Positions 1 through 39,075 of a stretch of 64,000 nt of DNA are shown piece by piece. The notes below the pieces were generated by a model. It was given only the letters and a program-made list of their open reading frames with translations. It ran no database searches and had not been told where the DNA came from. The stretch covers positions 26,284,501-26,348,500 of the forward strand of contig NC_092672.1 of NCBI RefSeq assembly GCF_964355755.1, in the 5' to 3' direction. The position numbers and the translations under genes are program-made. How positions within the stretch are numbered: the first letter of the stretch is position 1; every line of letters starts with the position of its first letter. This stretch comes from Antedon mediterranea. Its lineage: Eukaryota; Echinodermata; Crinoidea; Comatulida; Antedonidae.

Positions 1-542
1 ATTTGATTGATATTTTGTTTAGCATCTTCAACATCTGATTTGTATTTAGCAAGTATGATTTTACTTTCTGGTTTGTCCGTCATTTCTGTAACTGAGGTCT
101 TCATACTTTGTAACTGCATTCGATGTGATTCGAGTTCATTTACTTGACTTTTATTGAATTCCTCTCTTTGTGTACATACAGTTTTAAGGTCCATCCTTAG
201 TTTATCGCCTTCCTCTTTAACTTGTTTAACAACACATTCAACATGCCTTACAATCAGCCTGTTTATGTAGTCTGCATGTGACTTGAATTCTCTGTCATCG
301 CTAATTATGGAATTAAAAATAGTTTCTAACTCTTGGTTGACATCTTTAATTGACTTGATAACTTCGGTTACGTTTATGTAAAATTCATCTACTGAATAAG
401 GTTTGGTATCATGCTTCTCTGTATAACACGTCATAAAATGATCACAGTCCTTACATGCACTTTTGGTACACGTTGTACAATACCGTTCTAGTATGTTATC
501 AGGATGATCTTGACATCTTAATTGTACCTCTTGACTCGACAT
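1..542 (-). CDS. B-box/NHL family member 1, N-terminal part (runs off left edge)
   Basis: The frame is open from the ATG at 540-542 to the window edge (180 residues). It begins MSSQEVQLRCQDH and holds the B-box zinc ligands (CQDH, CTTC, CKDC, then C and H in CYTEKHDTKP), followed by the family coiled coil. The filamin and NHL parts would lie to the left, outside the window. The start is firm: it matches all paralogs and the splice acceptor TTTACAG lies immediately before the ATG. Its closest relative here is the copy at 17926..19630; both have CTQREEFNKSQ in the coiled coil. Relative to that copy it lost two residues just after the last B-box ligands (KPYSVDEF versus KPMINAVDEF), in frame. 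Whether the full gene is intact cannot be judged. The role is inferred from the family: a TRIM-like scaffold without a RING. Confidence 0.8.
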   Translation of the reverse strand, partial: MSSQEVQLRCQDHPDNILERYCTTCTKSACKDCDHFMTCYTEKHDTKPYSVDEFYINVTEVIKSIKDVNQELETIFNSIISDDREFKSHADYINRLIVRHVECVVKQVKEEGDKLRMDLKTVCTQREEFNKSQVNELESHRMQLQSMKTSVTEMTDKPESKIILAKYKSDVEDAKQNINQ

Positions 543-699
543 CTGTAAATATTTTATGTAAATCATTTTAGTTTTAGTTTTCAGCCGGTTAACATTCTAG
601 TGTGTGAAATAAAGAAATAACTTAAAATTGTATTCTTATTGTTCATAAGCTTTATGTAGTAACTTTTTTTTCTTTTAGGCAATTCAATATGATACGAAC

Positions 700-840
700 C
701 TTGATTTCTTTAATACTTTAACTTCCTCGTAGTTCAAATAATCCTGTGTAGTAGAGTTAGGTTTAGCAATGATTATCATGCAAATACACAGGAAATAGTT
801 CACTATTACCTTTAAACTTGATCGTAGTTAAATTACCTAT
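700..840 (-). promoter_or_regulatory. Leader exon donor and promoter block of family member 1
   Basis: On the minus strand a leader-exon end reads AAG|GTTCGT (last exon base about 700). Just upstream is the family leader motif, TACGAGGAAGTT-like (about 719-732). Further up is the shared block with a GGAAAT-like stretch and the reverse complement of tttaaactt-gat-agtta (about 785-830). The intron to the ATG is about 157 bp. The assignment rests on the same layout in every paralog; the transcription start is not proven. Confidence 0.55.
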
Positions 841-842
841 AA

Positions 843-2514
843 TAAAAAATTGCCAAGGACACTCATAAGCAATAACACAATAAATATAATATGTAATATT
901 TACAAGGGGGAAAAGAGAGTCGATCCCCTCTCTATTCGTTTAGTGTACCATTACGTTCTGTAACGTGCACTGTGTGCACGGGACCTACGCCTTTATGTAC
1001 CATACTAGATGCGAGAATAAGACGTTAATAGGAAAACAAAATCATTGTTGTCAAAATCCAGTATTTTTTCGAGTGTTATTGATTTGTAGTAGGCTACCAA
1101 ACACTAGCATAATACATTGAGAAAACGTCTTGTTGCTATTAAGATAACAATGTGGCAATTACAGCATGGAAGTATAAAATAGAACAGTAGCACGATGTTA
1201 ATTGTTATCCTTTGGAAAAATGAATAATAGTAAAACTATATTATATAGATTTCTCCAGTATCATAGGAATATGTGATAGGCATAATATAATATCATACGT
1301 GTTTCACATGTATCTACCATTATCATATTTAACTTAACCTTACATGATAAAGCACCACGTATGATATGAATGAGAAGCTGTATTACTAATATACAGCACT
1401 GAGAATCGGGTGACCAGATATGCTTTAAAGTTTCCAGCCGCATACTAGCATCTAGTTTACTAAACAAATATAACATAATGTCTACATCTATCACCTTACT
1501 TACGTACGCCGCTTACCTTATTTCTTAATATACTGTAAGTTTCAGTCTCAGCCTTACCTGCCGTTATGTAGTGAGGCTAAACATTACTATTAACCTTCAA
1601 GAATAATGCAGTATGTATCAATTTGCGCGCATAATCTTTATTGGTCACCGATGCGGTACCCACAAACTTGTGTTTTGACAATAGATACTTAGTATATACT
1701 TCCTTGGGATTACTGCACCGATGTAGGTGAATTGGATAGTAACATCTGTATACAGTATTGCTGTATTCCTGCATAATCTTAGTTCATAATTGTGTTCTGT
1801 TTATTTTTTTTCACCTTTTCACTCACTTTGTCTCTGGAACAGAACATTACGTTGTATTGTAAATAAAGTAGGCCTGCAATTCATATTTTATAATGTAATG
1901 TATATAATGTAAACCTTTGTTTTTGTAATGTAAGAAGAAATGTATTTCAAATTTAGCAGCAATGAGGTTTAACCACCGGGAAAACATATATTTTAATGGA
2001 TTATAATAATTAAAAAATATATGTAAAGAATACAGTTAAATTATTAAGTTGTGAATAACATTTGTAAAATGCAGAATAGAGAATCAATCATTTTTATTTC
2101 AAATTGTACAGTTTTTAAGTGAATTCTAAATCTAAACTTTAGTGTTGTCAATTGTATTCCCTGGCTATAAGTATATTTTTTAAATAACATAATAACAGAA
2201 AGGCTAAATGCTTAAGTAATCAAGGGACCATAAACATAAAACAAGACTTTATATGCAAGAGTTTTTATAGGCTGCTTAAATGTTATGCCAAATCAATTTA
2301 TATAATTGTGTATTGTAGTTTGTATCTAACGTCATCTTACCGTCAGAATGGATCTGTTATAAAGTAAGTACTGGTTATTCAAAGTTAGATAGTTATTTAA
2401 AAAACTGTTTAAGAATAAATTCAGACGTTGTATTCTAAATAATGTTTTCCATGTTTATTGAGCCTGGATTTTAATTTTTAAAAACCATTTAGTCTTTTTT
2501 TTTCTTCTGAACAA
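843..2514. other. Intergenic, no gene recognised
   Basis: AT-rich sequence with only short, uncharacterised open frames. The part from about 2160 to 2400 is homologous to the 3' flanks at about 6300-6500 and 21180-21420 (shared words such as ataagtatatttt and actggttatt). It therefore belongs to the duplication unit of the gene array. Confidence 0.5.
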
Positions 2515-4235
2515 TTAATAATTAAATATTTTCACATTGTTTGCCCCATAATTAGCAACAGCTAATCTCCTTGGATTATTACTGATAACAGTGATTCCAG
2601 CAGGAGTATCAATGTTGTCATTTACGCCATCTATTCGTTTTATAAAGATACCATTCTTATCAAACAATTGTAGTTTATGGTCACTGGACACTATCATATT
2701 TTCCTCCACGTCCATTACTATACTTCTAGCGTTCCATACCTTCCCATCTTCCTTACCTCTGTCTACAATTGTCTTCATGAACATACCATTTGCATTGAAC
2801 AATTGTATTGTATTGGTACCCTGATCAGGAACAAGTAAATTACCCTTCTTGGTTAAAGTAGCATCATGTGGTGCAGTTAGTGGTGGCCTACCATTCGAAC
2901 CAATCTTGCCCAACAGCTTTCCACCATCAATATTAAATTGATATATATAGAGTGAGTTTCACTGTCTGCAACATACAGAACTCGTGTTTCATTGTTTACT
3001 GCCAAACCTTCTGGAAATTCTAATATTCGTTTACCAAATTGAGTGACTACTTTAAATCTATCGTTACACATTACAATACTCTTTATTGCTGCATCAGTAA
3101 ACATAAAATAACCATTTTCCATTTGATGTATTCTATAGACTATGACACCAGTAACCTGTACATTTTCCATGAATGAACCTGATTGGTTGAATTTCAGCAA
3201 CTCATTACACCAACTTGATACTAATATACAACCATAGTTGTCTAATTTCACATAGATTGCATTTCTTGCGTCATCTATTTTAAGGGTTCCTATGTTTTCA
3301 ATGGTACGTAAACGGCGTGGTATAACTGTGATATTCACTGGTGAACCTTTGATGCTAGCAACTCCAGCACTGATCTCCATCTTCCACTCACCTTCATCAT
3401 TGCTTCTGCCGTTTATTTTATACTTCCCACTGTACGTGTATTCTACTTCATCAACGGCAATGTTGTCACATGATGGCTTGTTCAACATAGCAGTTAATGC
3501 ACTTGAATCACTTTCATCTACTTTTTCAACATTCACTGTAAACTGCTGTCCCTTTACAACAGTAATAAATTGATCATCTGTATTAATGCTGTACCTTTTA
3601 TCAACACATGTGATTTTACCAAGGCCTTTCGATATAGCATCATGCATGTCTGCATTTATTGTGAAGTTTGGTGTAAGATTTTTTGCATACGAGTAGAATT
3701 TGTCTTTCATTTGTTTGATTTTTTGTTCAATCCCTTCCATGTCCAATTTGAATTTGTCAAGTATGTTTGTATTTTCCGGTTTATCCTTCATATCTGTAGC
3801 TGATGTCTTAAGACTTTGTAATTACATTTGGTGTGGTTCGAGTTCTTTTACTTGACTTTCAATTGAATCCTTCTTTTGTTTACATACAGTATAAAGATAC
3901 GTCATTAGTTTCTCTCCTTCCTCTTTAACTTTTCTAACAGTAGCGTCTACATGGTTTTTAATCAGTTTTGTAATGTAGGCCTAATCTACTTGTAACTTAA
4001 ACTCCCTGTCATCGTTAATTATGGAATTAAAAATATCTTCCAATTCTTGTTTTATATCTCTGGCAGACGTTGTAACTTCATTTACCTTTTTGTTAAATTC
4101 ATCGACAGCAATTGTATAACAACTTACAAACTGTTCACAATCCTTACATGCACTTTTGGTACAAGTTGTACAAAACCGTTCCAGTGTATTAGTAGGATGG
4201 TCTTGGCATCTAAACTGGACCGATTGACTCGACAT
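2515..4235 (-). pseudogene. Family member 2, full-length but disabled
   Basis: The copy is collinear with the intact paralogs from MSSQSVQFRCQDH to the family C-terminus NNVKIFNY, but several lesions break it. (1) The B-box lacks nine residues after CYT, including the last zinc-binding His. (2) An insertion that includes TAGGCC creates a stop at 3981-3983 in the coiled coil. (3) A CAA to TAA change gives a stop at 3822-3824. (4) A two-base insertion in a TA run near 2945-2960 shifts the frame within the NHL part. (5) The 3' splice acceptor before the ATG reads CG instead of AG (4236-4237). Both ends are almost identical to the copy at 7239..8972 while the middle is more divergent, which suggests gene conversion or a mosaic origin. 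A filamin repeat and NHL strands can still be read. Confidence 0.9.
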
Positions 4236-4380
4236 CGGTAAATATTTATAAAATTAATTTAGAAATTTTAAATAATAATGTTGAATTTATAAAACATTTT
4301 AATGTTCATTAACTTTGGTTTAAATCTTCACTTTCGAATGTTTTCCTGTTGTGTTTCTGTTAAGTTAATTAACAACTTAC

Positions 4381-4560
4381 CTTATTTCCTGGATTTATTG
4401 TAACTTCCTCGTATGTAGTTCTTACGTTTACCATTTAAAGTTGGCAGTAATGGAGTGTATACTTCTATACAAATCAGTAACAAATGGGTATATGAAACAA
4501 CTCATGCATGACATTGGTCACAGTTAAATGATCTTATACAATGTGTTTGATATTAATAGG
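4381..4560 (-). promoter_or_regulatory. Leader exon and promoter of the disabled member 2
   Basis: The donor AAATAAG|GTAAGTT ends a leader exon at 4381. The leader motif TACGAGGAAGTT lies at 4402-4413. A TATA-like TATAGAAG is at 4462-4469 on the minus strand, and the shared TAACTGTGACCAA-type element is near 4520. The promoter looks preserved although the coding part is dead. Confidence 0.5.
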
Positions 4561-5374: not shown

Positions 5375-6026
5375 TAGAGTACATTCGACGTCACTAAACA
5401 TAACATTATCAATTCCTATTTTATGTACTTTATAGACTTGGAAGTTTGGAATTGGTATGTTGGCAATAAATAAATAGTATTGGTTAATTTTCAGAAACTC
5501 ATTAGAATAGATTTGTAGTAATAAACAACCGCCTTTAATGCTATAACCTCCGCTTCCTATGTCCCCTGCCGCCAATCCAATGTTGTTGTCACGTGATGGA
5601 TTTATCAGAGTAGCAGTCAATGTACAAGTATACCATTCATCCACATGTTTTACCTTCACTGAAAATGGTTGTCCCATGATAACGTTAACTGATTTATCAT
5701 TTTTATTAATGATGTACCTTTTATAAACACGTGATTTTACCGATTACATTGGAAATAGCACCATCCAGCTCTGTATTTATTGTAAAGTTTGGTGTAAGAG
5801 TAGGCCTATTTCAATAAGAGGAAAATTTGTCTTGATATTTTGTTTAACTTCTTCAATATCCGATTTGTAACTATCACGTATGGTTTGCAGTTTTATTATG
5901 GTTTGCAATTACTGGTATTTCATTTTCTCTGTCACAACTAATTACAACCTCTATTTTTTCCTTGCTATCTGTGATTGACGTTGAGATGGTTTTGAGATTT
6001 GAACGGCATCTCTTGACTCAACGTCT
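5375..6026 (-). pseudogene. Family member 3, internally deleted remnant
   Basis: Patches match the intact copy at 12820..14568: part of the NHL start (IPNFQVYKVHKIGIDN), a filamin piece (GDIGSGGYSIK, TLINPSRDN), the linker before it, and a small coiled-coil piece near 5850-5880. It ends at 6000-6030 with the family start region, where ATG has become ACG. Most NHL blades, the filamin core, most of the coiled coil and the B-box are missing, and the frame is broken repeatedly. Non-functional. Confidence 0.8.
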
Positions 6027-7135: not shown

Positions 7136-7238
7136 GCTATAATGTCTTCCATGCGCAGATTTCACTTTTGTTTAAACATTAGTTTATACAGTAGTGACTT
7201 CGTGCAGGTGTGACGTCAATGTGCTTTCAACAATTTGT

Positions 7239-8972
7239 TTAATAATTAAATATTTTAACGTTGTTTGCCCCATAATTAGCAACAGCTAGTCTCCTTGGGT
7301 TATTACTGATTACAGTGATTCCAGCAGGAGTATCAATGTTATCATTTACGTCATCTATTCGTTTTATAAAGATACCATTCTTATCAAACAATTGTAGTTT
7401 ATGGTCACTGGACACTATTAGATTCTCCTCCTTGTCCATAACTATACTTCTAGGGTTCCAAACTTTGCCATCTTCCTTACCTCCGTCTACAATTGTTTTC
7501 ATAAATACACCATTAGAATTAAACATTTGTATTGTATTAATACTACAATCAGGTATTAATAAATTACCTTCTTTAGTTGAAATGATGTCATATGGTGTAA
7601 TCAGATTACCTTTTGAACTTATCTTACCCTTCAGCTTCCCATTATCCTTACTAAATGTATAAACACAGCGGCCCTTTCTGTCTGTAATATACATAATTCG
7701 TGTTTCATTATTTACGGCCAAACCACTTGGAAATTTTAATGTTCCTTTACCCAATTGATAAATTTCTTCATATCTATCATTACATATAACAACACTCCCT
7801 CTTTCAGGGTCACTAAACATATACTGACCAATTCCTACATGGAGTATTTTATGAGCCTGGACATTTGGAACCTTTATATTGGCAATGAATGAACCTGATT
7901 GGTTGAATTTCAACAATTCATTAGAAAGACTTGATACTAACATACAACCGTTACTATCTAATGCTACATCTGTTACGTTGTAAGTGTTATCTTCCTTTAG
8001 TGATCCTATGTTGTCAATGGTTTGTACAAGTGTTGGTAAAACCGTGATATTCACTGGTGAACCTTTGATGCTAGCAACGCCGTTGGTGATCTCCATCTTC
8101 CACTCACCTTCCTCATTACATCTTCCTTTTATTGTACTCTTTCCACTTTCCATATATTCTACCTTATGAATGGCAATATTTGTATGCGATTGCTTGATTA
8201 ATTTAGCAGTTAATGTGCCTGTATCATGTTCGTCTACATTTTCAACTGTCACTGCAAAAGGTTGACCCTTTATAGCAGTAATGCATTGGTCATCTTCAGT
8301 AATAATGTATCTTTTATCAACACTTGTGATTTTACCGAGCCCTTTCGATATGTCACCATCCAGTTCTGCATTTATTGTGAAGTTTGGTGTAAGATTATTT
8401 TCATAAGAAATGAATTCGTGATTCATTTTGTCGATATTTTGTTTAACTTCTTCAATATCCGATTTGTAACTATCAAGTAGGGTTTTAAATTCCGGTTTGT
8501 CTGTAATTTCTGTAACTGATGCCTTCAGATTTTGTAATTGCAATTGGTGTGGTTCGAGTTCCTTTACTTGTCTATCAATGGCTTCCTCCTTTCTTTTACA
8601 TACAATGTTAAGATTCATCATTAGTTTCTCTCCTTCGTCTTTAACTTTTTTGACAACAACTTCTACGAGGTTTTCAATCAGTTTTTTAATGTAACCTACT
8701 TGCAACTTAAACTCCCTGTCATCACTAATTATGGAATTAAAAATGTCTTCCAATTCCTGCTTTGCATCTTTGGCAGACATTATAACTTCATTTACCCTTT
8801 TGTTAAATGCATCAACAGCAATTACCATAGGTTTGGTATCATGTTTTTCTGTATAACAACTTACAAACTGTTCACAATCCTTACATGTACTTTTTGTACA
8901 AGTTGTACAAAACCGTTCCAGTGTATTAGTAGGATGGTCTTGGCATCTGAACTGGACCGATTGACTCGACAT
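7239..8972 (-). CDS. B-box/filamin/NHL protein, family member 4 (intact, 577 aa)
   Basis: A RING-less TRIM/NHL-like protein with no signal peptide or membrane segment. The B-box-2 finger spans residues 10-49 (C10, H13, C22, C25, C30, C33, C39, H44). The coiled coil spans about 55-190, rich in K/E heptads. A filamin-type Ig repeat spans about 196-314 and ends in the family signature ASIKGSPVNITV. NHL propeller repeats span about 318-577. The family context (TRIM2/3/71-like proteins) suggests cytoplasmic oligomers that bind protein or RNA through the propeller. Without a RING it cannot itself be assumed to be a ubiquitin ligase. The start is fixed by the acceptor TTTACAG abutting ATG and by paralog identity. 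The CDS is a single exon. A retrotransposon lies about 100 bp upstream of its TATA-like box. The exact function is unknown; an immune role is possible but speculative. Confidence 0.9.
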   Translation of the reverse strand: MSSQSVQFRCQDHPTNTLERFCTTCTKSTCKDCEQFVSCYTEKHDTKPMVIAVDAFNKRVNEVIMSAKDAKQELEDIFNSIISDDREFKLQVGYIKKLIENLVEVVVKKVKDEGEKLMMNLNIVCKRKEEAIDRQVKELEPHQLQLQNLKASVTEITDKPEFKTLLDSYKSDIEEVKQNIDKMNHEFISYENNLTPNFTINAELDGDISKGLGKITSVDKRYIITEDDQCITAIKGQPFAVTVENVDEHDTGTLTAKLIKQSHTNIAIHKVEYMESGKSTIKGRCNEEGEWKMEITNGVASIKGSPVNITVLPTLVQTIDNIGSLKEDNTYNVTDVALDSNGCMLVSSLSNELLKFNQSGSFIANIKVPNVQAHKILHVGIGQYMFSDPERGSVVICNDRYEEIYQLGKGTLKFPSGLAVNNETRIMYITDRKGRCVYTFSKDNGKLKGKISSKGNLITPYDIISTKEGNLLIPDCSINTIQMFNSNGVFMKTIVDGGKEDGKVWNPRSIVMDKEENLIVSSDHKLQLFDKNGIFIKRIDDVNDNIDTPAGITVISNNPRRLAVANYGANNVKIFNY

Positions 8973-9143: not shown

Positions 9144-9345
9144 CTTATTTCCTGTATAATGTAACTTCCTCGTACGTAGTTATACCATTACGTTTATATT
9201 ATGGTTACCAGTAATGGAGTGCAGTGTGACGTGGTATACTTTTATACAAATTGGTAACAAATGTATATGAATGGCGTATACTAGATGAACTCATGCATAA
9301 GCTAAGAACGTGGTCACAGTTAATGATCCTATACAAATTGTTTTA
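9144..9345 (-). promoter_or_regulatory. Leader exon, TATA box and promoter of member 4
   Basis: The leader-exon donor AAATAAG|GTAAGT ends at 9144, and TACGAGGAAGTT is about 20 bp into the exon. A good TATAAAAG lies at 9239-9246 on the minus strand. A start about 30 bp downstream would give a leader exon of roughly 65-70 nt. The shared TAACTGTGACCA element lies near 9310-9322. The block is cut on its far side by the retrotransposon at about 9345. Confidence 0.6.
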
Positions 9346-12819: not shown

Positions 12820-14568
12820 TTAGTAATTAAATATCTTAACAGTGTTTGTTCCACAATTTGCAACAGCTAATCTCCTTGGCTTAAAGCCGATTACAGTGAG
12901 TCCATCTGGAGAATTAATGTCATCATTTATTTCATCTATTCGTTTTATGAATGTACCATTCTTATCAAACAGTTGTAGTTTGTGGTCACTGGACACTATT
13001 AGATTTTCATCCATGTCCATTACAATACATGTAGGGTTCCAAACTGTGCCATCTTCCTTTCCCCCATCTACAATTGTTTTCATAAATGTACCATTTGCTG
13101 AAAACAATTGTATTTTATTAGTATGCCAATCTGGTACTAACAAATTACCATCCATGGTTAAAGTGACGTCATGTGGTTTAATCAGTGTACCTGGTGTTAC
13201 ATCAACTGAACCTGAACCTATCTTGCCCATCAGCTCCCCACTATCAATGTTAAATTTATAAACACATTGAGCCCCTATGTCTGCAATATACAGAACATTT
13301 TTATCATTGTTTACTGCCAAACCAACTGGATATTCTAAGATTCCTTGACCGAATTGAGTAATTATTTTAAACTTCTCATTACACATTACAACACTCTTAC
13401 TTTCGGCGTCACTAAGCATAAAATTATCAATTCCTATTCTATGTACTTTATAGATTTGGACATTTGGAATTTGTATGTTGGCAATAAATGAACCTGATTG
13501 ATTAAATTTCAGTAACTCATTAGAATAGCTTGGTACTAATAAACAACCATCTTTATCTGATGTTACATCTGTCACATGGTATCGGTTATCTATTTTGAAA
13601 GATCCTATGTTATCAATAGTATGTAGAACTGTAGGTAGAACTGTAATATTCACTGGCGAGCCTTTGATGCTAGCAAATCCATTAGTGATGTTCATCTTCC
13701 ATTTACCGACGTCATTGCATGTACTTTTAATGCTGTACCCTCCGCTTCCTATGTCACCTACCACCAATTCAATGTTGTCACGTGATGGATTTATCAGAGT
13801 AGCAGTCAATGCGCAAGTATCCCATTCATCCACATGTTTTACCATCACTGCAAATGGTTGTCCCTTGATAACAGTAATTGATTTATCCTCTTCATTAACA
13901 ATGTACCTTTTATCAACACTTGTGATTTTACCGATTACATTAGAAATAGCATCATCCAGATCTGACTTTATCGTGAAGTTTGGTGTAAGATTATTTGGAT
14001 AAGAGGAAAATTTGTCTTCCATTGTATTTATATTTTGTTTAACTTCTTCAATATCCGATTTGTAACTATCAAGTATGGTTTTACATTCCGGTTTGTCTGT
14101 CATTTCTGTAACTGATGTCTTCAGATTTTGCAATTGCATTTGGTGTTGTTCGAGTTCTTTAACTTGTCTTTCAATTGCTTCCTCCTTTTGCTTACATACA
14201 ATGTCAAGATCCATCATTAGTTTCTCGCTTTCCTCTTTAACTTTTTTTACAACAACTTCTACATGGTTTTCAATCAATTTTTTAATGTAATCTACTTGTA
14301 ACTTAAACTCTCTGTCATCGCTAACTATGGAATTAAAAATGACTTCTAATTCCTGTTTCATATCTGTGGCCTTTGAGATAGCTTCATTTACGATTTTGTT
14401 AAATTCATCTGCTGCAATAATCATAGGTTTGGTGTCATGCTTCTCTGTATAACAACTCACAAAATGTTCACAATCTTTACATGCACTTTTGGTACACGTT
14501 GTACAAAACCGTTCTACTATGTTATCTGGATGATATTGGCATCTGAATGGCACCTCTTGACTCGACAT
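12820..14568 (-). CDS. B-box/filamin/NHL protein, family member 5 (intact, 582 aa)
   Basis: This is the same architecture as member 4 and the longest copy. The frame extends 15 codons further upstream, but I place the start at MSSQEVPFRCQYH because the acceptor TTTACAG directly precedes it, as in all paralogs; the extra codons are intron. B-box ligands are all present (CQYH, CTTC, CKDC, C..H). The filamin repeat (about 198-313) ends ASIKGSPVNITV. The NHL part includes DVTPGTLIKP, a small insertion relative to other members, and ends NTVKIFNY. A filamin loop GDIGSGGYSIK differs from the usual CGKYKIKG type and is shared only with the remnant at 5375..6026. The leader intron is about 1 kb, longer than in members 2 or 4. 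Confidence 0.9.
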   Translation of the reverse strand: MSSQEVPFRCQYHPDNIVERFCTTCTKSACKDCEHFVSCYTEKHDTKPMIIAADEFNKIVNEAISKATDMKQELEVIFNSIVSDDREFKLQVDYIKKLIENHVEVVVKKVKEESEKLMMDLDIVCKQKEEAIERQVKELEQHQMQLQNLKTSVTEMTDKPECKTILDSYKSDIEEVKQNINTMEDKFSSYPNNLTPNFTIKSDLDDAISNVIGKITSVDKRYIVNEEDKSITVIKGQPFAVMVKHVDEWDTCALTATLINPSRDNIELVVGDIGSGGYSIKSTCNDVGKWKMNITNGFASIKGSPVNITVLPTVLHTIDNIGSFKIDNRYHVTDVTSDKDGCLLVPSYSNELLKFNQSGSFIANIQIPNVQIYKVHRIGIDNFMLSDAESKSVVMCNEKFKIITQFGQGILEYPVGLAVNNDKNVLYIADIGAQCVYKFNIDSGELMGKIGSGSVDVTPGTLIKPHDVTLTMDGNLLVPDWHTNKIQLFSANGTFMKTIVDGGKEDGTVWNPTCIVMDMDENLIVSSDHKLQLFDKNGTFIKRIDEINDDINSPDGLTVIGFKPRRLAVANCGTNTVKIFNY

Positions 14569-15556
14569 CTGTAAACAATATTTAGAAAATTGTATTCTTT
14601 GTTTAACATGCATTTCTAGTGTTAAACCTACGAATCATGATTGATACTAGATTGAAACTCAATCACCTAGTTCAAACACAAAGTTAAAGTGATGTATGTT
14701 ATACTAGCAATTTTCTAATTTTTAATCAAGAAGACATCAAAACGTGTGAACGAATACTATTTTAGCAATAACATGTGTAATTTGTGAATTATAATTACAT
14801 TAGAACCACATTGGAGCAATTAATCAAGCATCAAGTTTAGTCTTGTACACTGTCTTGTACGTACAGATGCTGGTTATCTCGCTAGCATAATAATAGAATA
14901 AAAAAGATTATCCGCTGAAAATCCTCAAATGCCGAATAATCTTTATATCCTGGTACCAGTTATATTCTTTGAACAAGGACTAAATCCTTCAGATTTCTTT
15001 TGCTTTGTTGTTTTTTCATGTATGTTTTGTTAATTGGTATGCAACTTATCTTGTATTTTTGTTTTTCGACACACTGTAACTCTCGTGGAAATATCTGCAC
15101 AAGATTTTCCGTTACGTTTACCATAGAGGAAATATTATATTTCCTCCATGCGTTTACTAAAATTTATTCTGTTGTTAGCAATATAGTGATTATGCATTAT
15201 TTCACATAATATGTTAATAATGTTTGAGTTCATTTAAGTCCACACTGTGTATAACACTGTTCTTTGATTTTATTAGGCAAATAAACGTATTTCTTCAGAT
15301 TAAAAAACAGATACTCATCAGTAATAATTAAAACAAATGGTATACAACAACATAGTTAATCAGTTTCAATTAAGTTTTTTTAAATATGGTTTTTGTTTCA
15401 TCAACTCAGATATAAACCTTTCGACTAATATCTCATTTTCGGTTCGTTTATTATTTCACATAATGCATGTTAATTGAATTCGCATCACAGCATATTAATC
15501 TAATAAGTTGTGTTATCTTTGAAGATTAGATGTTTATAGTTTTAAACTCAACTTAC
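14569..15556 (-). other. Leader intron of member 5
   Basis: A 988-bp interval between the leader-exon donor (CTTAC read on the plus strand at 15551-15556) and the acceptor next to the ATG. It holds no recognisable gene. The analogous introns are 145-170 bp in members 2, 4 and 10, so this one has expanded. Confidence 0.55.
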
Positions 15557-17925: not shown

Positions 17926-19630
17926 TTAATAATTAAATATTTTTACATTATTTGCTCCGTAATTTGCCACAGCTAATCTCCTTGGGTTATCACTGATTAC
18001 AGTAATTCCAGCTGGAGTATCAATGTTGTCATTTACGTCATCTATTCGTTTTATAAAGATACCAGTCTTATCAAACAATTGTAGTTTATGGTCACTGACA
18101 ACTATTAAATTCTCATCCTTATCCATTACTATACATTTAGGTTTCCAAACCTTACCATCTTCCTCCCCACCATCCACAAATGTTTTTATAAATGCACCAT
18201 TTGCATTAAACATTTGTACTTTATTAGCTCTCCAATCAGGTACTAATAGATTACCTTCACTTGTTAAAATGACATCATGTGGAGCATTTAGTGTATCCAT
18301 TGAACCAATCTTACATATCAGCTTTCCGCCATCAATATTGAATTGATATACATAGTGCCCATCTCTGTCTGCAACATACAGACTTCTTGTTGTAAGGTTT
18401 ACAGCCAAGCCAACTGGGTATTCCAGTATGCCCTTACCAAATTGAGTGATTACTTGAAACGTATCATCACACCATACAACTTTCTGATTTTGGGCATCGG
18501 TAAATACAAAATGACCAATATCTACGTCATGTATCTTATAGACATTGACATTTGGAATTTTTATGTTGGCAATAAATGAACCAAATTTTTTAAATTGTAA
18601 CAACTCATTACAATAACTGGATACTAACATACAGCCGTTTTTATCTAATTTCACATCTGTTACTTTGAATCTGTTGTCTATTTTGTATGATGCTATGTTA
18701 TAAATGGTTTGTACAAGAGATGGTACAACTGTGATATTCACTGGTGAACCTTTGATGCTAGAAACTCCATTAGTGATCTCCATCTTCCAGGCACCTTCCT
18801 CATTGCATCTTCCTTTTATTTTATACTTTCCACACCCCATGATTTCTACCTCATCAACAGCAATGTCGTCACGAGATGGCTTGATCAAAGTACCAGACAG
18901 TGTGCATGTATCGTCACATTCATTCACATTTTCTACTTTCACCGAAAATGGTTGCCCCTCTGTAACAGTAATGTTTTTATCATCTTCGATAACGCTGTAA
19001 CGGTTATCGACACTTTTAATTTCACCGAGGCCTTTTAAAATATAAGCGTTCAGCTCTGTGTTTATTAAGAAGTTTGGAGTAAGATTGTTTGCAAACGAGC
19101 AGAACACCTTCAACATCTGATTTGTATTTAGCAAGTATGGTTTTACTATTCGGTTTGTCTGTCATTTCTGTAACTGATGTCTTCAAACTTTGTAACTGCA
19201 TTTGATGTATTTCGAGTTCATTAATTTGACTTTTATTGAATTCTTCTCTTTGTGTACATACACTTCCAAGGTCCGTCATTAGTTTCTCGCCTTCTTCTTT
19301 AACTTTTTTGACAACACCTTCTACATGTTTTACAATCAGCTTTTTTATGTAGTCCACGTGTGACTTGAATTCTCTGTCACCGCTAATTATGGAATTAAAA
19401 ATAGTTTCTAATTCTTGGTTGACATCTTTAATTGACTTGATCATTTCGGTTACGTTTATGTCAAATTCATCTACTGCATTTATCATAGGTTTGGTATCAT
19501 GTTTTGCTGTATAACACGTCATAAAATGATCACAGTCCTTACATGCACTTTTGGTACAAGTAGTACAATAACGTTCCAGTATGTTATCAGGATGATCTTG
19601 ACATCTTAATTGTATATCTTGACTCGACAT
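17926..19630 (-). pseudogene. Family member 6, frameshifted
   Basis: The copy is almost complete. It starts MSSQDIQLRCQDH at 19630 (acceptor ATTACAG abuts the ATG) with an intact B-box and coiled coil to KYKSDVE. It then lost about 29 bases of coiled-coil coding sequence near 19105-19112. The deletion shifts the frame; the downstream part (SFANNLTPNF, filamin repeat, NHL propeller to NNVKIFNY, about 17926-19115) is otherwise fully open in another frame. As a single lesion it may be a young pseudogene, a segregating allele or an assembly error. If translated from its start, the product would be a B-box plus coiled-coil fragment only. Confidence 0.8.
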
Positions 19631-19711
19631 CTGTAATATTATTAATAATTTTTTAGTTTTAGTTTTCAACAGGTTAACATTCTAGTATTTTAACTATATA
19701 ATAAATATGAT

Positions 19712-19998: not shown

Positions 19999-20100
19999 CT
20001 TATTTTCATGAATAACTTCCTCGTAGTCCAAACCTTTAGGTTTTATTCAAAAACATGAGAAATAAAATAATAAAAACTTTAAACTGGGTCACAGTTAAAT
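19999..20100 (-). promoter_or_regulatory. Leader exon and promoter block of member 6
   Basis: The leader exon ends AAAATAAG|GTTCGT at 19999 with TACGAGGAAGTT about 15 bp in. The shared TAACTGTGACCCAGTTTAAA element follows at about 20077-20096. No TATA box is evident here. Confidence 0.5.
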
Positions 20101-21786: not shown

Positions 21787-22198
21787 TAATAATTAAATAT
21801 TTTAACGTTGTTTGCCCCATAATTAGCAACAGCTAGTCTCTTTGGGTTATTACTGATTACAGTGATTCCATCAGGAGTATCAATGTTATCATGTACGCCA
21901 TCTATTCGTTTTATAAAGATACCATTCTTATCTAACAATTGTAGTTTATGGTCACTGGACACTATTAGATTATCCTTCCTTGTCCATTACTATATATTTC
22001 TAGGGTTCCAGATTTGACCATCTTCTTTACCCTCATCTACAATTATTTTCATAAATTCACCATTAGAATTGAAAATTTGGATTGTATTAGTACTCCAATC
22101 GGGTATTAATAAATGACCTTCTTTAGTTAAAATGATCTTCTTTAGTTAAAATGATATTATATGGTGCCATCAGTATACCCTTTGATCGTATCTTATTT
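21787..22198 (-). pseudogene. Family member 7, C-terminal NHL fragment
   Basis: Only the last NHL blades remain, most similar to the end of member 4 (7239..7660) and sharing its 3' flank. Frameshifts lie near 21970-22000, and there is a tandem duplication of a 19-bp word (cttctttagttaaaatgat) near 22120-22155. It abuts the 3' end of member 8 with about 35 bp between them, so it is a truncated duplicate rather than a gene. Confidence 0.85.
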
Positions 22199-22232: not shown

Positions 22233-23966
22233 TTAGTAATTAAATATTTTAACATTGTCCTCTCCAAAATTTGCCACAGCTAATCTTCTAGGATTATAGC
22301 TGATTATAGTGAGTCCACCAGGAGTATAAATGTTATCAGTTTTGTCATCTATTCGTTTTATAAAGAAACCGTTCTTGTCAAACAATTGTAGTTTATGGTC
22401 ACTGGCAACTATTATATTCTCATCCTTGTCCATTACTATACATTTAGGGGTCCAAACCTTACCGTCTTCCTTACCCCCATCTACAATTGTTTTCATAAAC
22501 GTACCATTTTCATGAAACATTTGTACTTTGTTAGCACTCCAATCAGGTATTAGTAGGTTACTTCCTCTGTTTAAGATGACATCATGTGGGCCAATCAATG
22601 TATTACTTGAACCAATCCTTCCCAAAAGCTTCCCATTATACATATTAAATTGATATACATATGGTTTTTCTCTGTCTGCAACATACAGAACCTTTGTTTC
22701 ATTGTTTACTGCCAACCCCACAGGAAATTTCAATATTCCTTTACCAAATTGAGTTATTACTTCAAACCGATCATTACACATTACAACATTCCTGTTTTTG
22801 CCTCCACTAAACATAAAATTACCATTTTCCATCTGATGTATTTTGTAGACAACACAATCCGGAACTTGTACAGTGGAAATAAATGAACCTGATTGGCTGA
22901 ATTTCAACAATTCACTGGATACGCTTGATACTAATACAGAGCCATCTTTAATTAACTTCACATCTGTTACTTTGAATCTGTTGTCTATTTTGTATGATTC
23001 TATGTTGTCAATTGTATGTACAAGAGTTGGTTCAACTGTGATATTCACTGGTGAACCTTTAATGCTAGAAAATCCATTAGTGATCTTCATCTTCCAGGTA
23101 CCTTCCTCATTGCATCTACCTTTTATTCTGTACTTTCCATTTCCAATGCATTCTATCACATCAACGATAGTTGTGTCACCTGATGGTTTTATCAGAGTAA
23201 CATTTAGTGTGCATGCAAACTCCTTGTCAACATTTTCTACCTTCACTTCAAATGGTTGCCCCTTTGTAACAGTAATGGATTTATCATCTTTATCAATGCT
23301 GTACCTGTTATCAATACTTGTGATTTTACCGAGGCCTTTGCTTATAGCGCAATCTAATTCTGCATTTATTGTGAAGTTTGGTGTAAGATTGTTTGCATAA
23401 GAGAGTAACTTGTGTTTCGTTTGATTAATATTTAGTTGAACACTTTTGATATCCGATTTGCAATTTTCAAGTATGTTTGTATTTTCTGGGTTGTCCATCA
23501 TTTCTGTAGCTGATACCTTCAGACTTTGCAACTGCATTTGGTGTAAATCGAGGTCCTTTAATTGGCTATCATTGGCTTCATCCTTTTGCTTACATAGAAT
23601 ATCAAGGTCTATCATTAGTTTTTCGCCTTCATCTTTAACCTTAGTAACAATACCTTCTATATGGTTTTCAATCAGATTTTTAATGTAGCCTACTCGGGAC
23701 TTAAATTCTCCGTCATCTCTAATCATAGAATTAAAAATAGTTTCTAGTTCCTGTTTGATATCCAAAGCTGCCATGATAGTTTCAGTTACGTTCTTGTTAA
23801 ATTCATCGACAGCAACTTGCATAGGCTTGCTATTGTGTTTCAATCTAGAGCAACTTATAAAATGTTGACAATCCTTGCATGAACTTTTGATACATGTTTT
23901 ACAAAACCGTTCAAGATTATTATTAGGATGATCTTGACATCTGAATTTTACTTCTTGATTCGACAT
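22233..23966 (-). CDS. B-box/filamin/NHL protein, family member 8 (intact, 577 aa)
   Basis: It starts MSNQEVKFRCQDH, with the acceptor ATTACAG directly before the ATG. All B-box ligands are kept (CQDH, CKTC, CKDC, C..H), but the loop between the last two is unusual (CSRLKHNSKP versus CYTEKHDTKP in siblings). The coiled coil, the filamin repeat (ending SSIKGSPVNITV) and the NHL propeller are complete. It is the most divergent intact copy, for example KEFACTLNVTL in the filamin part and GEDNVKIFNY at the C-terminus. The leader intron is about 370 bp. Confidence 0.9.
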   Translation of the reverse strand: MSNQEVKFRCQDHPNNNLERFCKTCIKSSCKDCQHFISCSRLKHNSKPMQVAVDEFNKNVTETIMAALDIKQELETIFNSMIRDDGEFKSRVGYIKNLIENHIEGIVTKVKDEGEKLMIDLDILCKQKDEANDSQLKDLDLHQMQLQSLKVSATEMMDNPENTNILENCKSDIKSVQLNINQTKHKLLSYANNLTPNFTINAELDCAISKGLGKITSIDNRYSIDKDDKSITVTKGQPFEVKVENVDKEFACTLNVTLIKPSGDTTIVDVIECIGNGKYRIKGRCNEEGTWKMKITNGFSSIKGSPVNITVEPTLVHTIDNIESYKIDNRFKVTDVKLIKDGSVLVSSVSSELLKFSQSGSFISTVQVPDCVVYKIHQMENGNFMFSGGKNRNVVMCNDRFEVITQFGKGILKFPVGLAVNNETKVLYVADREKPYVYQFNMYNGKLLGRIGSSNTLIGPHDVILNRGSNLLIPDWSANKVQMFHENGTFMKTIVDGGKEDGKVWTPKCIVMDKDENIIVASDHKLQLFDKNGFFIKRIDDKTDNIYTPGGLTIISYNPRRLAVANFGEDNVKIFNY

Positions 23967-24338: not shown

Positions 24339-24490
24339 CTTCTTGATCGACTGCAACTTCCTCGTTGTCCTAAACCAATATAGTTTGTAGTATAATTAAT
24401 GAAAGTGCGGTTAGCAATAACACTACCATTTAACGGATGTGTATGCATGACGTATAGAAAGAAATTTAAACCATGAACTTTAAACTTTGT
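24339..24490 (-). promoter_or_regulatory. Leader exon and promoter block of member 8
   Basis: The leader exon ends AAG|GTAAGT at 24339, with an AACGAGGAAGTT motif. The shared block carries ATACGTCA (reverse of 24448-24455) followed by AAAGTTCATGG. No TATA box is obvious. Confidence 0.5.
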
Positions 24491-28974: not shown

Positions 28975-30705
28975 TTAATAATTAAATATTTTAACATTGT
29001 TTGCTCCGAAATTTGCCAAAGCTAATCTCCTTGGTTTATAACTGATTACAGTGATGCCACCAGGAGTGTCAACGTTATCAATTACGGCATCGATTCGTTT
29101 TATAAATATACCATTCTTATCAAACAATTGTAGTTTATGGTCACTGACAACTATTAGATTCTCATCTTTGTCCATTATTATACATTTAGGGTTCCATACC
29201 TTACCGTCTTCCTCGCCCCCGTCTATAATTGTTTTCATAAATGCACCATTTACATTAAACATTTGTATTTTATTAGTTTTCCAATCAGGAACTAATAAAT
29301 GACCTTCCTTGGTTAAAATTACATCATGTGGGGTAATCAGTTTACTCCATTTACCAGTTATCTTACCTATCAGTTTTCCACTATCAATATTAAACTTATA
29401 GACACAGGAAGCTTCTCTGTCTGCAATATACAGAACTCTTGTTTCATTGTTTACTGCCAAACCAACTGGATATTCTAATATTCCTTTACCAAATTGAGTG
29501 ATAACTTTAAATCTATCATTGCACATCACAACCTTCCTTTCGGCATCACTAAACATGAAATTACCATTTCTCATTTTATGAATCTTATAGATTGGGATTT
29601 TGATTTGTATATTAGCAATAAATGAACCTGATTTGTTAAATTTTAACAACTCATTTGAACAGCTTGATACTAACATACAGCCATTTTCATCTAAATTTAC
29701 ATCTGTTACCTTGAGTCTATTATCTAACTTGTGTGATCCTATGTTTTCAATGGTGTGTACAAGTGTTGGTACAAATGTGAAACTCACTGGTGAACCTTTG
29801 ATGCTAGCAACGCCAGCACTGATCTCCATCTTCCAATCGCCTTCCTCATCGCATCTACCTTTTATTCTATACTTTCCCCATCCCGCGTATTCCACCTTAT
29901 CGATGGCAGTGCTTTTACTTGATGGATTTATCAGAGTAGCACTCAAAACACATGCATCACATTCGTCCACATTTTCAACATTCACTGTAAATGGTTGTCC
30001 CTTTGTAACAGTAATTGATCTATCAGCTTCACGAACGCTGTACCTTTTATCAACACTTGTGATTTTACCGAGCCCTTTCGATATAGCACCATCCAGCTCT
30101 GCATTTATTGTGAAGTTTGGTGTAAGATGGTTAGCATAAGAGAGAAATTTGTGTTTCATTTTATTGATATTTTGTTTGACTTCTTCGATATCCGATTGGC
30201 AATTGTTAAGTATGTTTTCATTTTCCGGTTTGTCTGTCATTTCTGTAATTGATGTCTTGAGGCTTTGTAATTCCATTTGGTGTGGTTCAAGCTCTATTAC
30301 TTGACTTTCAATTGATTCTTTCTTTTGTTTACATAAAATATCAAGATTCATCATTAGCTTCCCTCCTTCCTCTTTTACTTTTTTAACAACAACTTCTACA
30401 TGGTTTTCAATCAGTTGTTTAATGTAATCTACTTGTAACTTAAATTCTCTGTCATCGCTAATTATGGAATTAAAGATATCTTCCAATTCCTGTTTTGTAT
30501 CTGTGACAGACGTTGTAACTTCATCTACTCTTTTGTTAAATTCATCTACAGCAATTATCATAGGTTTTGTATCATGTTTTTCAGTATAACAACTTACAAA
30601 CTGTTCACAATCCTTACATGCACTTTTGGTACAAGTTGTACAAAACCGTTCCAGTGTATTATTAGGATGATCTTGGCATCTGAATGGGACCTCTTGTTTA
30701 GACAT
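28975..30705 (-). CDS. B-box/filamin/NHL protein, family member 9 (intact, 576 aa)
   Basis: It starts MSKQEVPFRCQDH, with the acceptor TTTACAG directly before the ATG. The B-box is complete and the coiled coil spans about 55-190. The filamin repeat (about 195-313) ends ASIKGSPVSFTFVP, departing from the VNITV strand seen in all siblings. NHL blades run to NNVKIFNY. A tryptophan in the filamin loop (AGWGKYRIKG) and ITGKWSKLITP in the propeller are private. The leader intron is about 1.5 kb and filled with repeat debris. Confidence 0.9.
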   Translation of the reverse strand: MSKQEVPFRCQDHPNNTLERFCTTCTKSACKDCEQFVSCYTEKHDTKPMIIAVDEFNKRVDEVTTSVTDTKQELEDIFNSIISDDREFKLQVDYIKQLIENHVEVVVKKVKEEGGKLMMNLDILCKQKKESIESQVIELEPHQMELQSLKTSITEMTDKPENENILNNCQSDIEEVKQNINKMKHKFLSYANHLTPNFTINAELDGAISKGLGKITSVDKRYSVREADRSITVTKGQPFTVNVENVDECDACVLSATLINPSSKSTAIDKVEYAGWGKYRIKGRCDEEGDWKMEISAGVASIKGSPVSFTFVPTLVHTIENIGSHKLDNRLKVTDVNLDENGCMLVSSCSNELLKFNKSGSFIANIQIKIPIYKIHKMRNGNFMFSDAERKVVMCNDRFKVITQFGKGILEYPVGLAVNNETRVLYIADREASCVYKFNIDSGKLIGKITGKWSKLITPHDVILTKEGHLLVPDWKTNKIQMFNVNGAFMKTIIDGGEEDGKVWNPKCIIMDKDENLIVVSDHKLQLFDKNGIFIKRIDAVIDNVDTPGGITVISYKPRRLALANFGANNVKIFNY

Positions 30706-34770: not shown

Positions 34771-34889
34771 ATTCTTTTTTTAAATTTGGTTTTTTTGTTA
34801 AAACTGACAGAAATAATTTGTAGCATCATCATCAGGACAAAAAGATACAGTATCTGAACGTCTGAACATCCTCACCTTTATTTTTAGTA

Positions 34890-35454: not shown

Positions 35455-35565
35455 TCGCGTGGACGCGACTCTATAGTTCACTATGTTGGTCGGTCTGTCT
35501 GTCGGTCTGTCTGTCTGTCGGTCTGTCGGTCTGTCTGTCGGTCCGGTATCACTATGCATTGTAGC
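35455..35565. repeat. GGTC/TGTC tetranucleotide array inside a repeat module, copy 2
   Basis: It has the same flanks and array type as the copy at 34890-34990. It is preceded by the same upstream repeat (35075-35455) that is found at 33200-33680. Confidence 0.65.
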
Positions 35566-35569
35566 ACGC

Positions 35570-36986
35570 GACTTAATGGCTGTTGGTCTTGTTTATTTTC
35601 TGTATAAATACTACACTACTATAATATTGTAAAATGATGAGAAATCATTATGATTAAGTCACCAACCTTCCCACTTGGGCTCATTTTTTTAATCTAGACG
35701 CCTGCCATGACGACGTACGTGCATTTTAATGGCGCATGCGCTGCTAAGAAGCCTTTGTTTATTTTGTAACAATGTCTTTGCAGCCGATTCTCGGTACTGT
35801 ATCTATTTCCGAAATATTATAGGAACATTTGGTAATACAACATCACTACCTTAAACTAACCTTACATGATACATGATAATGAAAGAAATGTATTAATAAA
35901 TATTCCTATGATACCTCGCAAATAGTAGATAGTTTGTGGAGATACAGCACTCTGGGAATCGGATGGTCTTCGTCATGGCCTGTTATGGAGAGAGCGGTTA
36001 CTCTGCCCTGTAAAAGACATAACAGATCAGAGTGATTCGAGTCCCTGTGTCCATTTGGCCATGGTAAGAATATGTTATTTATGCGCGCACAAACAGTTAT
36101 GTTCACTATATTCTCTGCCAATACGCAATGCAAGATATATACAACACATTGAAACTATAGAAACAATTCACAATACAGATGAAAGGATTACCAATTTTAA
36201 TTTTCAAGTTATATTTGTACAGTGCCGATGCTCAGTGCTCTGTGCCGATATATGGACATGATGACGTCAAATCACTACCATATTATTTGGGTATATCACT
36301 ACCATATTTGGGCATATCACAGATTTTTTTGTTAAACTAGTTAAACTGTCTTGCCAACGTAAGTTTTATTGGTTTACTATCAAAGAACTACTTATATTAT
36401 TATACGAATCGAAACCAGAAGAAATGTTTTCATTAGTTTGATAGTGTAGACAGAGGTTATTAAGGCAATTTTATGTTCAACAATTCTTTTCTTTACCGTA
36501 CCAACGTGTTACATATCTACACAGATGCTCCAACAATCAACAGAATGTTTAAAATAATATTTCCGGGTTTGCCGTTATTATAAAGCAATCCAGTATCAGA
36601 AAATAAAGTCGCTAAATGTGCATCTTATAGTTATTCTTATTTTTAGTACACAGTAGAAAACCCCATCCAACACATTTTTATTTAACACTGAACAATCTTT
36701 CAATTTCACATGTAAAATAAATATTTAAGAATGTAATGTAGCTATTCTATAACTTATAATATTAAAACGTATGCCTATTCAATTATTGAGTTTTAATCAA
36801 ATCTAATAAATTTGGTAAAGATTCAAAACAATATCTTATCATCATTTTGTTTTGTTTTTTTATTAATAATGGAAATGTGATACATGAATTATGTAAAAAA
36901 AATCTAATGAAAAAAGGTGTATCTGAAGATTCTCATACAAAGACGATTACACTCATTTTATGTAGGAATGAACTGTATTGTTAAGT
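35570..36986. other. Intergenic
   Basis: No gene is recognised. A tRNA-like B-box word (GATTCGAGTCC near 36033-36043) follows a GAGCGGTTACTCTG word, which could be a worn SINE head. The rest is AT-rich. Confidence 0.4.
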
Positions 36987-38699
36987 TTAGTAATTAAATA
37001 TCTTAACATTGTTTTCTCCACAATTTGCCACAGCTACTCTCCTTGGGTTATTGCTAATTACAGCGATTCCACTTGGAATATCGATGTTATCGTTTATGGC
37101 ATCGATTCGTTTTATAAATATACCATTCTTATCAAACAATTGTAGTTTATGAATGCTTGCAACTATTATATTTTCATCCCTGTCTATTACTATACATATA
37201 GGGTTCCAAACTTTATCATCCTGCTCACCCCCGTCTACAATCGTTTTCATAAACATACCGTTTGCAGAAAACATTTTTATTTTATTAGTACTCCAATCGG
37301 GAATTAATAAGTTACCTTCTTTGGTTAAAGTAACATCATGCGGTGAAATCAAACCTATCTTACCTATCAGCTTTCCATCATCAATATTAAATTGATAAAC
37401 GCAGTGAGCTTCTCTGTCTGCAACATACAGACATTTCGTTTCATTGTTTACTGCCAAACCAACAGGACATTTTAATATTCCTTTACCAAATTGAGTGATA
37501 ACTTTAAATCTATCATTACACAATACTACATTCTTTCTTTCTGCGTCGCTAAACATAAAATAACCGTTTTCCATTTGATGCATTTTATAAACATGGATAT
37601 TTGGAATGTGTACAGTGGAAATAAATGAACCTGATTGGCTAAATTTCAGCAATTCATTAGACCGACTTGACACTAACATACAGCCATCTTTATTTAATTT
37701 CACATCTGTTACTTTGCTATCTATTTGGAGGGATCCTATGTTGCTAACGGTATGTACAAGTGTTGGTAGAACTGTGATATTCACAGGTGAACCTTTGATG
37801 CTAGCAACTCCTGTAGTGATCTCCATCTTCCAATCACCTTCCTCATTGCATTTACTTTTTATTCTATACGTCCCGTTTCCAATGTGTTCTACCTCTTCAA
37901 TTGCGATGTTTTCACCTGATGGTTTTACGAGTGTAGCAGTCAATACACCTGCATCACATTTGACCACATTTTTTACCACTACTGTAGATATTTGCCCCTT
38001 GATAACAGTAATGAATTCATCATCTTCAGTAATACTGAATCTGTTATCAACACTTGTGATTTTACCAAGCCCTTTCGATATAGCACCGTACAACTCTGTG
38101 TTTATTGTAAAGTTTGGAGTAAGATTGTTTGCATACGAGAGAAATGTTTCTTTCATTTTATCAATATTTTTTTGAATTCCTTCAATATCCGATTTGTAAC
38201 TGTTAAGTGTGTTTTTATTTTCTGGTTTGTCTGTCATTTCCTCAACTGCTTTCTTCAGACTTTGCAATTGCATTTGATGAGGTTCGAGTTCTTTCACCTG
38301 ACTTTTTATAGCGTCTTTCTTTTGCTTACACACAATTTGAAGATCTTTCATTAGTTTCTCGCCTTCCTCTTTAACTTTTTTCACAACAGCAGCTATATGG
38401 TTTTCAATCAGTTTGTTTATATAGTCTACTTGAGATTTCAATTCTCCGTCATTGCAAATTATGGAATTGAATATAGCTTCTAATTCCTGTTTGATGTCTT
38501 TAGCTGACGTGATAGTTTCAGTTACGTTTTTGTTAAATTCATCGACAGCAACTTTCATGGGCTTGGTATCATGTTTTGCTGTATAACATGTCATAAAATG
38601 TTCACAATCCTTGCATGCACTTTTGGTACAAGTTGTACAATAACGCTCCATTATGTTATCAGGATGATCTTGACATCTAAATTTCTCTTGCCCAGACAT
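36987..38699 (-). CDS. B-box/filamin/NHL protein, family member 10 (intact, 570 aa)
   Basis: It starts MSGQEKFRCQDH and is the shortest intact copy. The acceptor TTATAG directly precedes the ATG. The B-box is complete (CQDH, CTTC, CKDC, CYTAKH), the coiled coil spans about 54-188, and the filamin repeat ends ASIKGSPVNITV. The NHL region is shortened by a few residues at two places (IDSKVTDV and IGLISPHDV) and ends NNVKIFNY. It is the outermost member of the array on the right; the next gene is an unrelated housekeeping gene. Confidence 0.9.
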   Translation of the reverse strand: MSGQEKFRCQDHPDNIMERYCTTCTKSACKDCEHFMTCYTAKHDTKPMKVAVDEFNKNVTETITSAKDIKQELEAIFNSIICNDGELKSQVDYINKLIENHIAAVVKKVKEEGEKLMKDLQIVCKQKKDAIKSQVKELEPHQMQLQSLKKAVEEMTDKPENKNTLNSYKSDIEGIQKNIDKMKETFLSYANNLTPNFTINTELYGAISKGLGKITSVDNRFSITEDDEFITVIKGQISTVVVKNVVKCDAGVLTATLVKPSGENIAIEEVEHIGNGTYRIKSKCNEEGDWKMEITTGVASIKGSPVNITVLPTLVHTVSNIGSLQIDSKVTDVKLNKDGCMLVSSRSNELLKFSQSGSFISTVHIPNIHVYKMHQMENGYFMFSDAERKNVVLCNDRFKVITQFGKGILKCPVGLAVNNETKCLYVADREAHCVYQFNIDDGKLIGKIGLISPHDVTLTKEGNLLIPDWSTNKIKMFSANGMFMKTIVDGGEQDDKVWNPICIVIDRDENIIVASIHKLQLFDKNGIFIKRIDAINDNIDIPSGIAVISNNPRRVAVANCGENNVKIFNY

Positions 38700-38872
38700 C
38701 TATAACAATTTATGAAATGTATTCTAGATTTTAGCAGGCTAATGTTCTAGTGTGTTATAATAAAATATCTCCTAATACATATTGTGGTATTAGTTTTAAT
38801 TAACATTATAACTAAATCTTCCAGCTTTCTCTTGTAAATGTTAGTAGTTTGCTAATTAAGTGTGCCACTAAC

Positions 38873-39075
38873 CTTGTTTTCTAGTGCAACTTCCTCCATT
38901 CTAACTTTACTTAGTCACCAATAATAATATAGTTTGTAGTAGGCCTAAATGGGGTGCGGTTAACAAAGAGACGTTTGGCATGGTATGCTCACATCACAAT
39001 ATACAAAAGTGTACATGACGTAGGCATATAGGAAATAATTCATACATGACCTTCAACCTGATCACAACAATACAT
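38873..39075 (-). promoter_or_regulatory. Leader exon and promoter block of member 10
   Basis: The leader exon ends AAACAAG|GTTAGT at 38873, with GGAGGAAGTT. A GTTAACCGCACCCCATTT word lies at about 38945-38962 (reverse). The shared block with ATTTCCTATA and TACGTCA lies at 39016-39036 (reverse), then a TGATCAGGTTGAAGGTCATG-like element. The leader intron is 173 bp. Confidence 0.5.

Follow-up and report, generated by a model that had tools for sequence, protein, structure and literature searches.

TRIM-NHL proteins and related systems

TRIM-NHL proteins are usually regarded as conserved developmental RNA regulators, and the classic fast-evolving antiviral factors of vertebrates are TRIMs with a B30.2 domain. 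Brat and NHL-1, both TRIM-like, are known only as single genes. TRIM2, TRIM3 and TRIM71 (class VII, subfamily C of Marin) carry a B-box2, a long helical region, a filamin repeat and an NHL propeller in this order. RING-less TRIM-like NHL proteins are already known in Brat and NHL-1 (PMC3503706). In fish finTRIM/TRIM35/btr and primate TRIM5alpha, all of the RBCC-B30.2 type, tandem expansion is combined with selection on C-terminal ligand loops and with a conserved N-terminal scaffold (PMC3137616). In fungal NLRs of the HET-E type, selection acts on four positions in every repeat of the WD40 propeller, all located on the interaction surface (PMC4986451). A sea urchin study reports 140 annotated TRIM genes, TRIM71-, TRIM56- and TRIM45-like genes included (PMC13043383).

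The genes described here lie in a stretch of 64,000 nucleotides (the window). They share the domain order of TRIM2, TRIM3 and TRIM71, but lack a RING, stand in tandem multigene arrays, show selection on one face of the NHL propeller and lack most of the basic contacts of LIN41. Like Brat and NHL-1 they combine a B-box and NHL without a RING, but neither of those is described as a tandem diversifying array in PMC3503706. The variable domain is B30.2 in the fish and primate TRIMs and the NHL propeller in the present family. HET-E type NLRs, although unrelated to TRIM-NHL proteins, show the same diversification of one propeller face for recognition; there the variation lies within the near-identical repeats of one gene, whereas here it lies between paralogues. 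The sea urchin TRIM expansion (PMC13043383) is likewise a large invertebrate repertoire, but is not known to show selection on an NHL face. In the open-access literature we found no earlier account of diversifying selection on an NHL face.

The array forms a single tandem clade of TRIM-NHL genes without a RING, belonging to a lineage-specific TRIM(FLN)-NHL expansion; that its variable propeller faces make up a repertoire of binders we consider probable, at roughly 60%.

Ten homologous loci on one strand

Employing the intact products as tblastn queries against the window, we found exactly ten homologous loci between positions 1 and 38,705, all on the minus strand: five intact (570-582 aa), one cut by the window edge, two near-full pseudogenes and two fragments. 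A reading made from the sequence alone (the sequence-only reading) had counted ten related same-strand loci in less than 39 kb in these same states, and the count holds. The edge gene is complete and intact beyond the window (G000:C3:26283315-26285042), where the search showed it to be the leftmost copy of the array. Intact copies are 62-72% identical in pairwise comparisons over 570-580 aa (75-81% at the DNA level), which excludes chance likeness. The loci, with the 3' ends of the upstream exon 1 found by a conserved-exon profile, are as follows (a slash marks a splice boundary).

3..542 (tblastn match 3-584), minus strand: edge gene, N-terminal part of a RING-less B-box/CC/FLN/NHL gene running past the window edge
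700..728, minus strand: non-coding exon 1 of the edge gene, 3' end (GAGGAAGTT...CAAG/GT donor), profile
2518..4253, minus strand: near-full pseudogene with in-frame stops and a frameshift, tblastn
4381..4410, minus strand: conserved exon 1 (3' end) of the 2518..4253 pseudogene, profile
5384..5983, minus strand: fragment, nearest to the 12823-14568 gene (85% DNA), tblastn and DNA comparison
7242..8972, minus strand: intact gene, 577 aa, tblastn and ORF
9144..9171, minus strand: exon 1 (3' end) of the 7242..8972 gene, GT donor, profile
12823..14568, minus strand: intact gene, 582 aa counted from the post-acceptor ATG, ORF and acceptor
17929..19633, minus strand: near-full pseudogene, frameshift near 19100, tblastn
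19999..20022, minus strand: exon 1 (3' end) of the 17929..19633 pseudogene, profile
21789..22136, minus strand: NHL fragment (C-terminal), matching 7184-7586 at about 90% identity, 3' flank included
22236..23966, minus strand: intact gene, 577 aa, tblastn and ORF
24339..24363, minus strand: exon 1 (3' end) of the 22236..23966 gene, GT donor, profile
28978..30705, minus strand: intact gene, 576 aa, reference for residue numbering, ORF and model
36990..38699, minus strand: intact gene, 570 aa, tblastn and ORF
38873..38896, minus strand: exon 1 (3' end) of the 36990..38699 gene, GT donor, profile

Gene structure and absence of a RING

In nearly all full-length family members a splice acceptor (typically TTTACAG/ATG) abuts the start codon. 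Because TTTACAG/ATG occurs there, we moved the start of ORF 12820-14613 to 14568, probably the true start. Upstream of most copies in the window lies a short conserved exon with the 3' end GAGGAAGTT...AAG/GTAAGT, about 150-400 bases from the ATG (about 1 kb in the gene starting at 14568); its profile matched seven of eight copies, the exception being the 28978-30705 gene. In the reading frame set by splicing, stops occur a short way upstream in this exon, and it varies in length without regard to frame, which identifies it as 5' UTR. The gene plan of the array is a short non-coding exon 1, an intron and one coding exon opening at the ATG. In RING-bearing paralogues RING, B-box1 and B-box2 lie within one coding exon, behind a similar acceptor before the ATG.

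We built a profile from 28 paralogous RING/B-box1 regions and applied it to all six frames of the window. RING-bearing paralogues, as a positive control, scored 250+ bits; no RING was detected in the window, where the best match was no better than E 0.18. The RING finger of the strict TRIM (RBCC) definition is therefore absent from these genes, as the sequence-only reading had claimed, and the upstream spliced RING exon that it had named as a refuting finding was not found in the window, exon 1 being short and non-coding with in-frame stops. Trans-splicing is an unlikely source of the CAG/ATG junction, given the conserved exon in seven of eight window copies and the GT donors in the copies read. 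Nor is it supported that the single coding exon arose as a retrogene, since the 5' intron and the tandem order are retained.

Domains and predicted structure

The window genes encode, in order, a B-box2, a long helical region, a filamin repeat and a six-bladed NHL propeller; in the 28978..30705 protein these span residues 10-44, 46-191, about 200-310 and 312-576. Their B-box and filamin matches stay below the Pfam cut-offs (17-20 bits vs 24.1 and 15-21 bits vs 26.9), whereas those of relatives pass, and the filamin call rests mainly on these relatives. The B-box2 zinc finger of the strict TRIM definition is present: zinc ligands C10, H13, C22, C25, C30, C33 and H44 are kept in 58 of 58 family members and C39 in 55 of 58. 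The filamin repeat followed by an NHL propeller is the arrangement of TRIM-like subfamily C (class VII), and the NHL region matched TRIM2/3/71 at phmmer E values of about 1e-18 to 1e-17.

AlphaFold was run on seven window sequences, and the NHL alone was usable (pLDDT mostly 78-92 by ten-residue block). Long helices were modelled at 47-191 with pLDDT 42-52, and the filamin region is of similarly low confidence. Foldseek with the modelled NHL returned the NHL domains of TRIM2, TRIM3, LIN41/TRIM71, Thin and Brat (E 3e-17); the LIN41 FLN-NHL structure was matched too, and TRIM2 gave a TM score of 0.79 on the target. Of the modules named by the sequence-only reading, B-box2, filamin and NHL are thus confirmed; its coiled coil would correspond to the long helical region, modelled at low pLDDT.

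The family across the genome

The search covered one genome (354.4 Mb, about 11 large contigs), and family counts are lower bounds. At least 78 stretches matched one window protein; there were at least 151 RING/B-box1 matches, at least 102 filamin-repeat matches and at least 150 B-box matches, true filamin and other TRIMs included. In the family tree that the sequence-only reading had proposed, drawn for this genome, a clade with support 100 unites the array's six intact genes; it is nested in a RING-less group of 16 genes on C3, C5, C6 and C9 (support 100), inside a large multi-array expansion. RING-bearing members lie on C2, C3, C4, C6 and C7, mostly in arrays; they have the same B-box2/CC/FLN/NHL layout, with an identity of about 40-44%. 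The birth-and-death array of that reading stands, but as a small part of a genome-wide, mostly RING-bearing TRIM-FLN-NHL expansion.

The labels RING-bearing and RING-less switch at least three to five times over the tree, and two genes (L067 and L078) have lost the RING while retaining B-box1, which shows independent losses. RING was lost more than once in this expansion. The window clade would then descend from RING-bearing TRIM-NHL genes, a direction that we infer only, since the tree was rooted at its midpoint.

Mean dS within the window array is about 0.57-0.59; this array is therefore not a young one. Its fragments are more recent: 21789-22136 shares 90% identity with the terminal part of the 7242 gene together with its 3' flank. 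On C9, the pair L015/L016 is near-identical in the upstream region, B-box and helices, whereas NHL dS is about 0.53, a mismatch that is a sign of conversion or exchange. Given its pseudogenes and fragments, its mosaic copies and the many arrays of recent origin elsewhere, the family is not the conserved single-copy set without recent turnover that would have spoken against birth and death.

Diversifying selection in the NHL domain

Codon models (GY94, F3x4; M0, M1a, M2a, M7, M8a and M8, with M0 branch lengths and naive empirical Bayes) were fitted with our own script, so exact values need confirming with standard software. By domain, omega in the window genes was 0.12 for B-box2, 0.37 for the helices, 0.44 for filamin and 0.34 for NHL. 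B-box2, the most constrained domain, is under strong purifying selection, and in genes with the NHL signal RING is constrained as well as the B-box.

With trees of the NHL alone, a class with omega >1 was favoured in all six copy groups, strongly in four. M8a against M8 gave p=1.2e-4 (w+ 3.5) for the six window genes, p=2e-13 for the C3:31.9 Mb array, p=3e-18 for the C2:37.2 Mb array, p=1.6e-8 for the C9/C5/C6 RING-less group, and p=0.012 and 0.045 for two further groups. In a parametric bootstrap for the window six, none of 27 replicates reached the observed statistic of 13.5 (replicate maximum 6.8). Over the whole protein, M1a against M2a gave p=0.16 for the window genes, and the signal in the window's own genes is modest. 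The control domains (B-box and helices) showed no signal in the window six. In C3 they were marginally positive (p 0.049), and both the C2 and the C9/C5/C6 group gave a weak positive (p about 0.002); recombination may therefore add noise.

A tree-free count between two NHL domains of the C3:31.9 Mb array gave 52 non-synonymous against 1 synonymous differences (p=6e-5). In this youngest RING-bearing array the signal is visible without a tree; it is weaker in the older window genes. In the C2 array, dN of the NHL pairs does not rise above dS overall; the signal there is carried by site models and loop positions.

Selected sites lie on one propeller face

In all six groups it is a single face of the propeller that is under diversifying selection, with two affected loop positions in each blade. 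We set the register to human TRIM71 by sequence alignment for blades 3-5 and by hand (D-x-x and strand landmarks) for blades 1-2, and transferred the RNA contacts of LIN41 (PMC5908797). Apart from R770, which could not be placed, 13 contact equivalents were obtained in the 28978-30705 protein: 331, 332, 349, 350, 371, 388, 389, 412, 414, 431, 460, 475 and 505. Their mean posterior for omega >1 was 0.44, against 0.10 overall, and 0 of 264 circular shifts gave as high a value. Over the six blades the top-face loop pair varied in amino acid in 70-97% of cases, compared with 16-65% at other positions (p 0.0012 to 2e-9). Top loops gave 0.17-0.53 and bottom loops 0.01-0.07, the loops of the opposite face being the quietest part; the top-loop excess was present in six of six groups. 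Such one-sidedness is hard to obtain from drift, misalignment or conversion.

Of the seven Arg/Lys contacts of LIN41, R564 alone is usually basic in the window genes; each of the other six is basic in 0-1 of six genes. The basic top face of a LIN41-type RNA binder is thus mostly lacking, which makes LIN41-style stem-loop binding unlikely, although these domains may bind RNA in other ways.

A probable repertoire of binders and its alternatives

A multigene family with birth-and-death turnover and diversifying selection on a binding face is what one would expect of a recognition repertoire. The one-faced selection in the NHL directly supports the repertoire proposed by the sequence-only reading, which may be an immune one. 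The conserved B-box2 and coiled coil would form a dimeric or oligomeric scaffold, on which the propeller would present a single variable face, altered repeatedly between paralogues by diversifying selection. The copies would most likely bind changing ligands. These may be products of pathogens or selfish elements, or else allelic or non-self partners of another kind, and the diversity of the copies would be maintained by duplication, pseudogenisation and partial gene conversion. RING-less members would have to act without E3 activity of their own, as scaffolds, by partnering in signalling, or within oligomers that also contain RING-bearing paralogues. The broader generalization, that the NHL propeller is a one-faced hypervariable recognition domain in a repertoire of some hundred or more TRIM genes, with RING-less clades as ligase-less receptors, is tentative, at a little short of even odds.

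The RING-less copies might instead be regulators or decoys that modulate the E3 activity of RING-bearing paralogues by co-assembly through coiled coil and B-box. The domain plan common to both kinds and the retention of the highly constrained B-box2 through repeated RING loss speak for this, but the window clade lies far from the RING-bearing clades and has selected sites in its own NHL, suggesting recognition of its own. We regard this role as somewhat unlikely, and it is compatible with the binder repertoire. The copies could also be Brat-like RNA-binding translational repressors, each specialised for a different set of mRNAs in the germ line or in development, with the face diversified for regulation rather than immunity. 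Brat is a RING-less precedent (PMC3503706), NHL binds RNA via the same face (PMC5908797) and the selected sites coincide with the LIN41 contact positions; the lack of nearly all basic contacts, and the rarity of big tandem arrays under repeated strong diversifying selection among developmental regulators, make this unlikely.

Pseudogenes, fragments and an omega that averages less than 1 over the window genes would fit neutral birth and death, with copies arising by unequal crossing-over and NHL loops drifting under relaxed constraint. This is disfavoured as improbable, because NHL pairs of the C3 array clearly have dN/dS >1, the top loops stand out in every group while bottom loops are quiet, and RING and B-box are constrained within the same genes. 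An artefact of gene conversion between paralogues or of misalignment, to which mosaic pairs such as L015/L016 and the weak positives in the control domains could point, is very improbable: the signal survives NHL-only trees, appears in tree-free counts, and conversion neither produces dN >dS nor picks one propeller face. Finally, the acceptor at the ATG does imply some upstream exon, but that a distal RING exon is spliced in, making the products ordinary RING TRIMs, is barely credible given the short exon with its nearby stops, the single RING/B-box exon of the paralogues and the negative profile search.

If the binder-repertoire reading is true, the NHL class would join the rapidly evolving recognition systems, in parallel to B30.2 loops and WD40 propellers. 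The expansion names exact top-face residues and would offer a natural variant library on one scaffold for ligands of the NHL face. Repeated RING loss raises the question of how such proteins function without a ligase; the NHL-like domain of human TRIM56 boosts TLR3 signalling without the RING (PMC11768893), so RING-less action is possible.

TRIM-NHL copies elsewhere in the genome

The TRIM-NHL genes L067 (C4:22.3 Mb) and L078 (C7:1.52 Mb) retain B-box1 and B-box2 with the RING excised, and represent independent RING losses. L015 and L016, which adjoin at C9:1.28 Mb, are nearly identical over 530 upstream bases and the N-terminal half, and their NHL propellers have diverged (dS ~0.53); the two genes are a mosaic pair. 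The strongest diversifying selection on the NHL was seen in a very recent RING-bearing array at C3:31.92-31.99 Mb (L034, L039, L046 and L053). This array is a better test object than the array in the window.

Surroundings of the window array

RING/B-box TRIM genes also form a cluster of their own (L079) at C3:26.39-26.41 Mb. It is on the same strand as the window array and lies to the right of it, at a distance of ~70-85 kb. Within the array, a LINE-type ORF was inserted ~270 bases upstream of exon 1 (the non-coding 5' exon) of the 7242-8972 gene, on the opposite strand:

9440-11557, +, LINE-type reverse transcriptase ORF (RVT_1, E 1.7e-37)

The right flank of the array (40726-61034) contains exons from ordinary multi-exon genes:

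40726-40956, -, Rpb4-like
55072-55518, -, OTU-like
59048-61034, +, VPS13, N-terminal

The genome is therefore not intron-poor.
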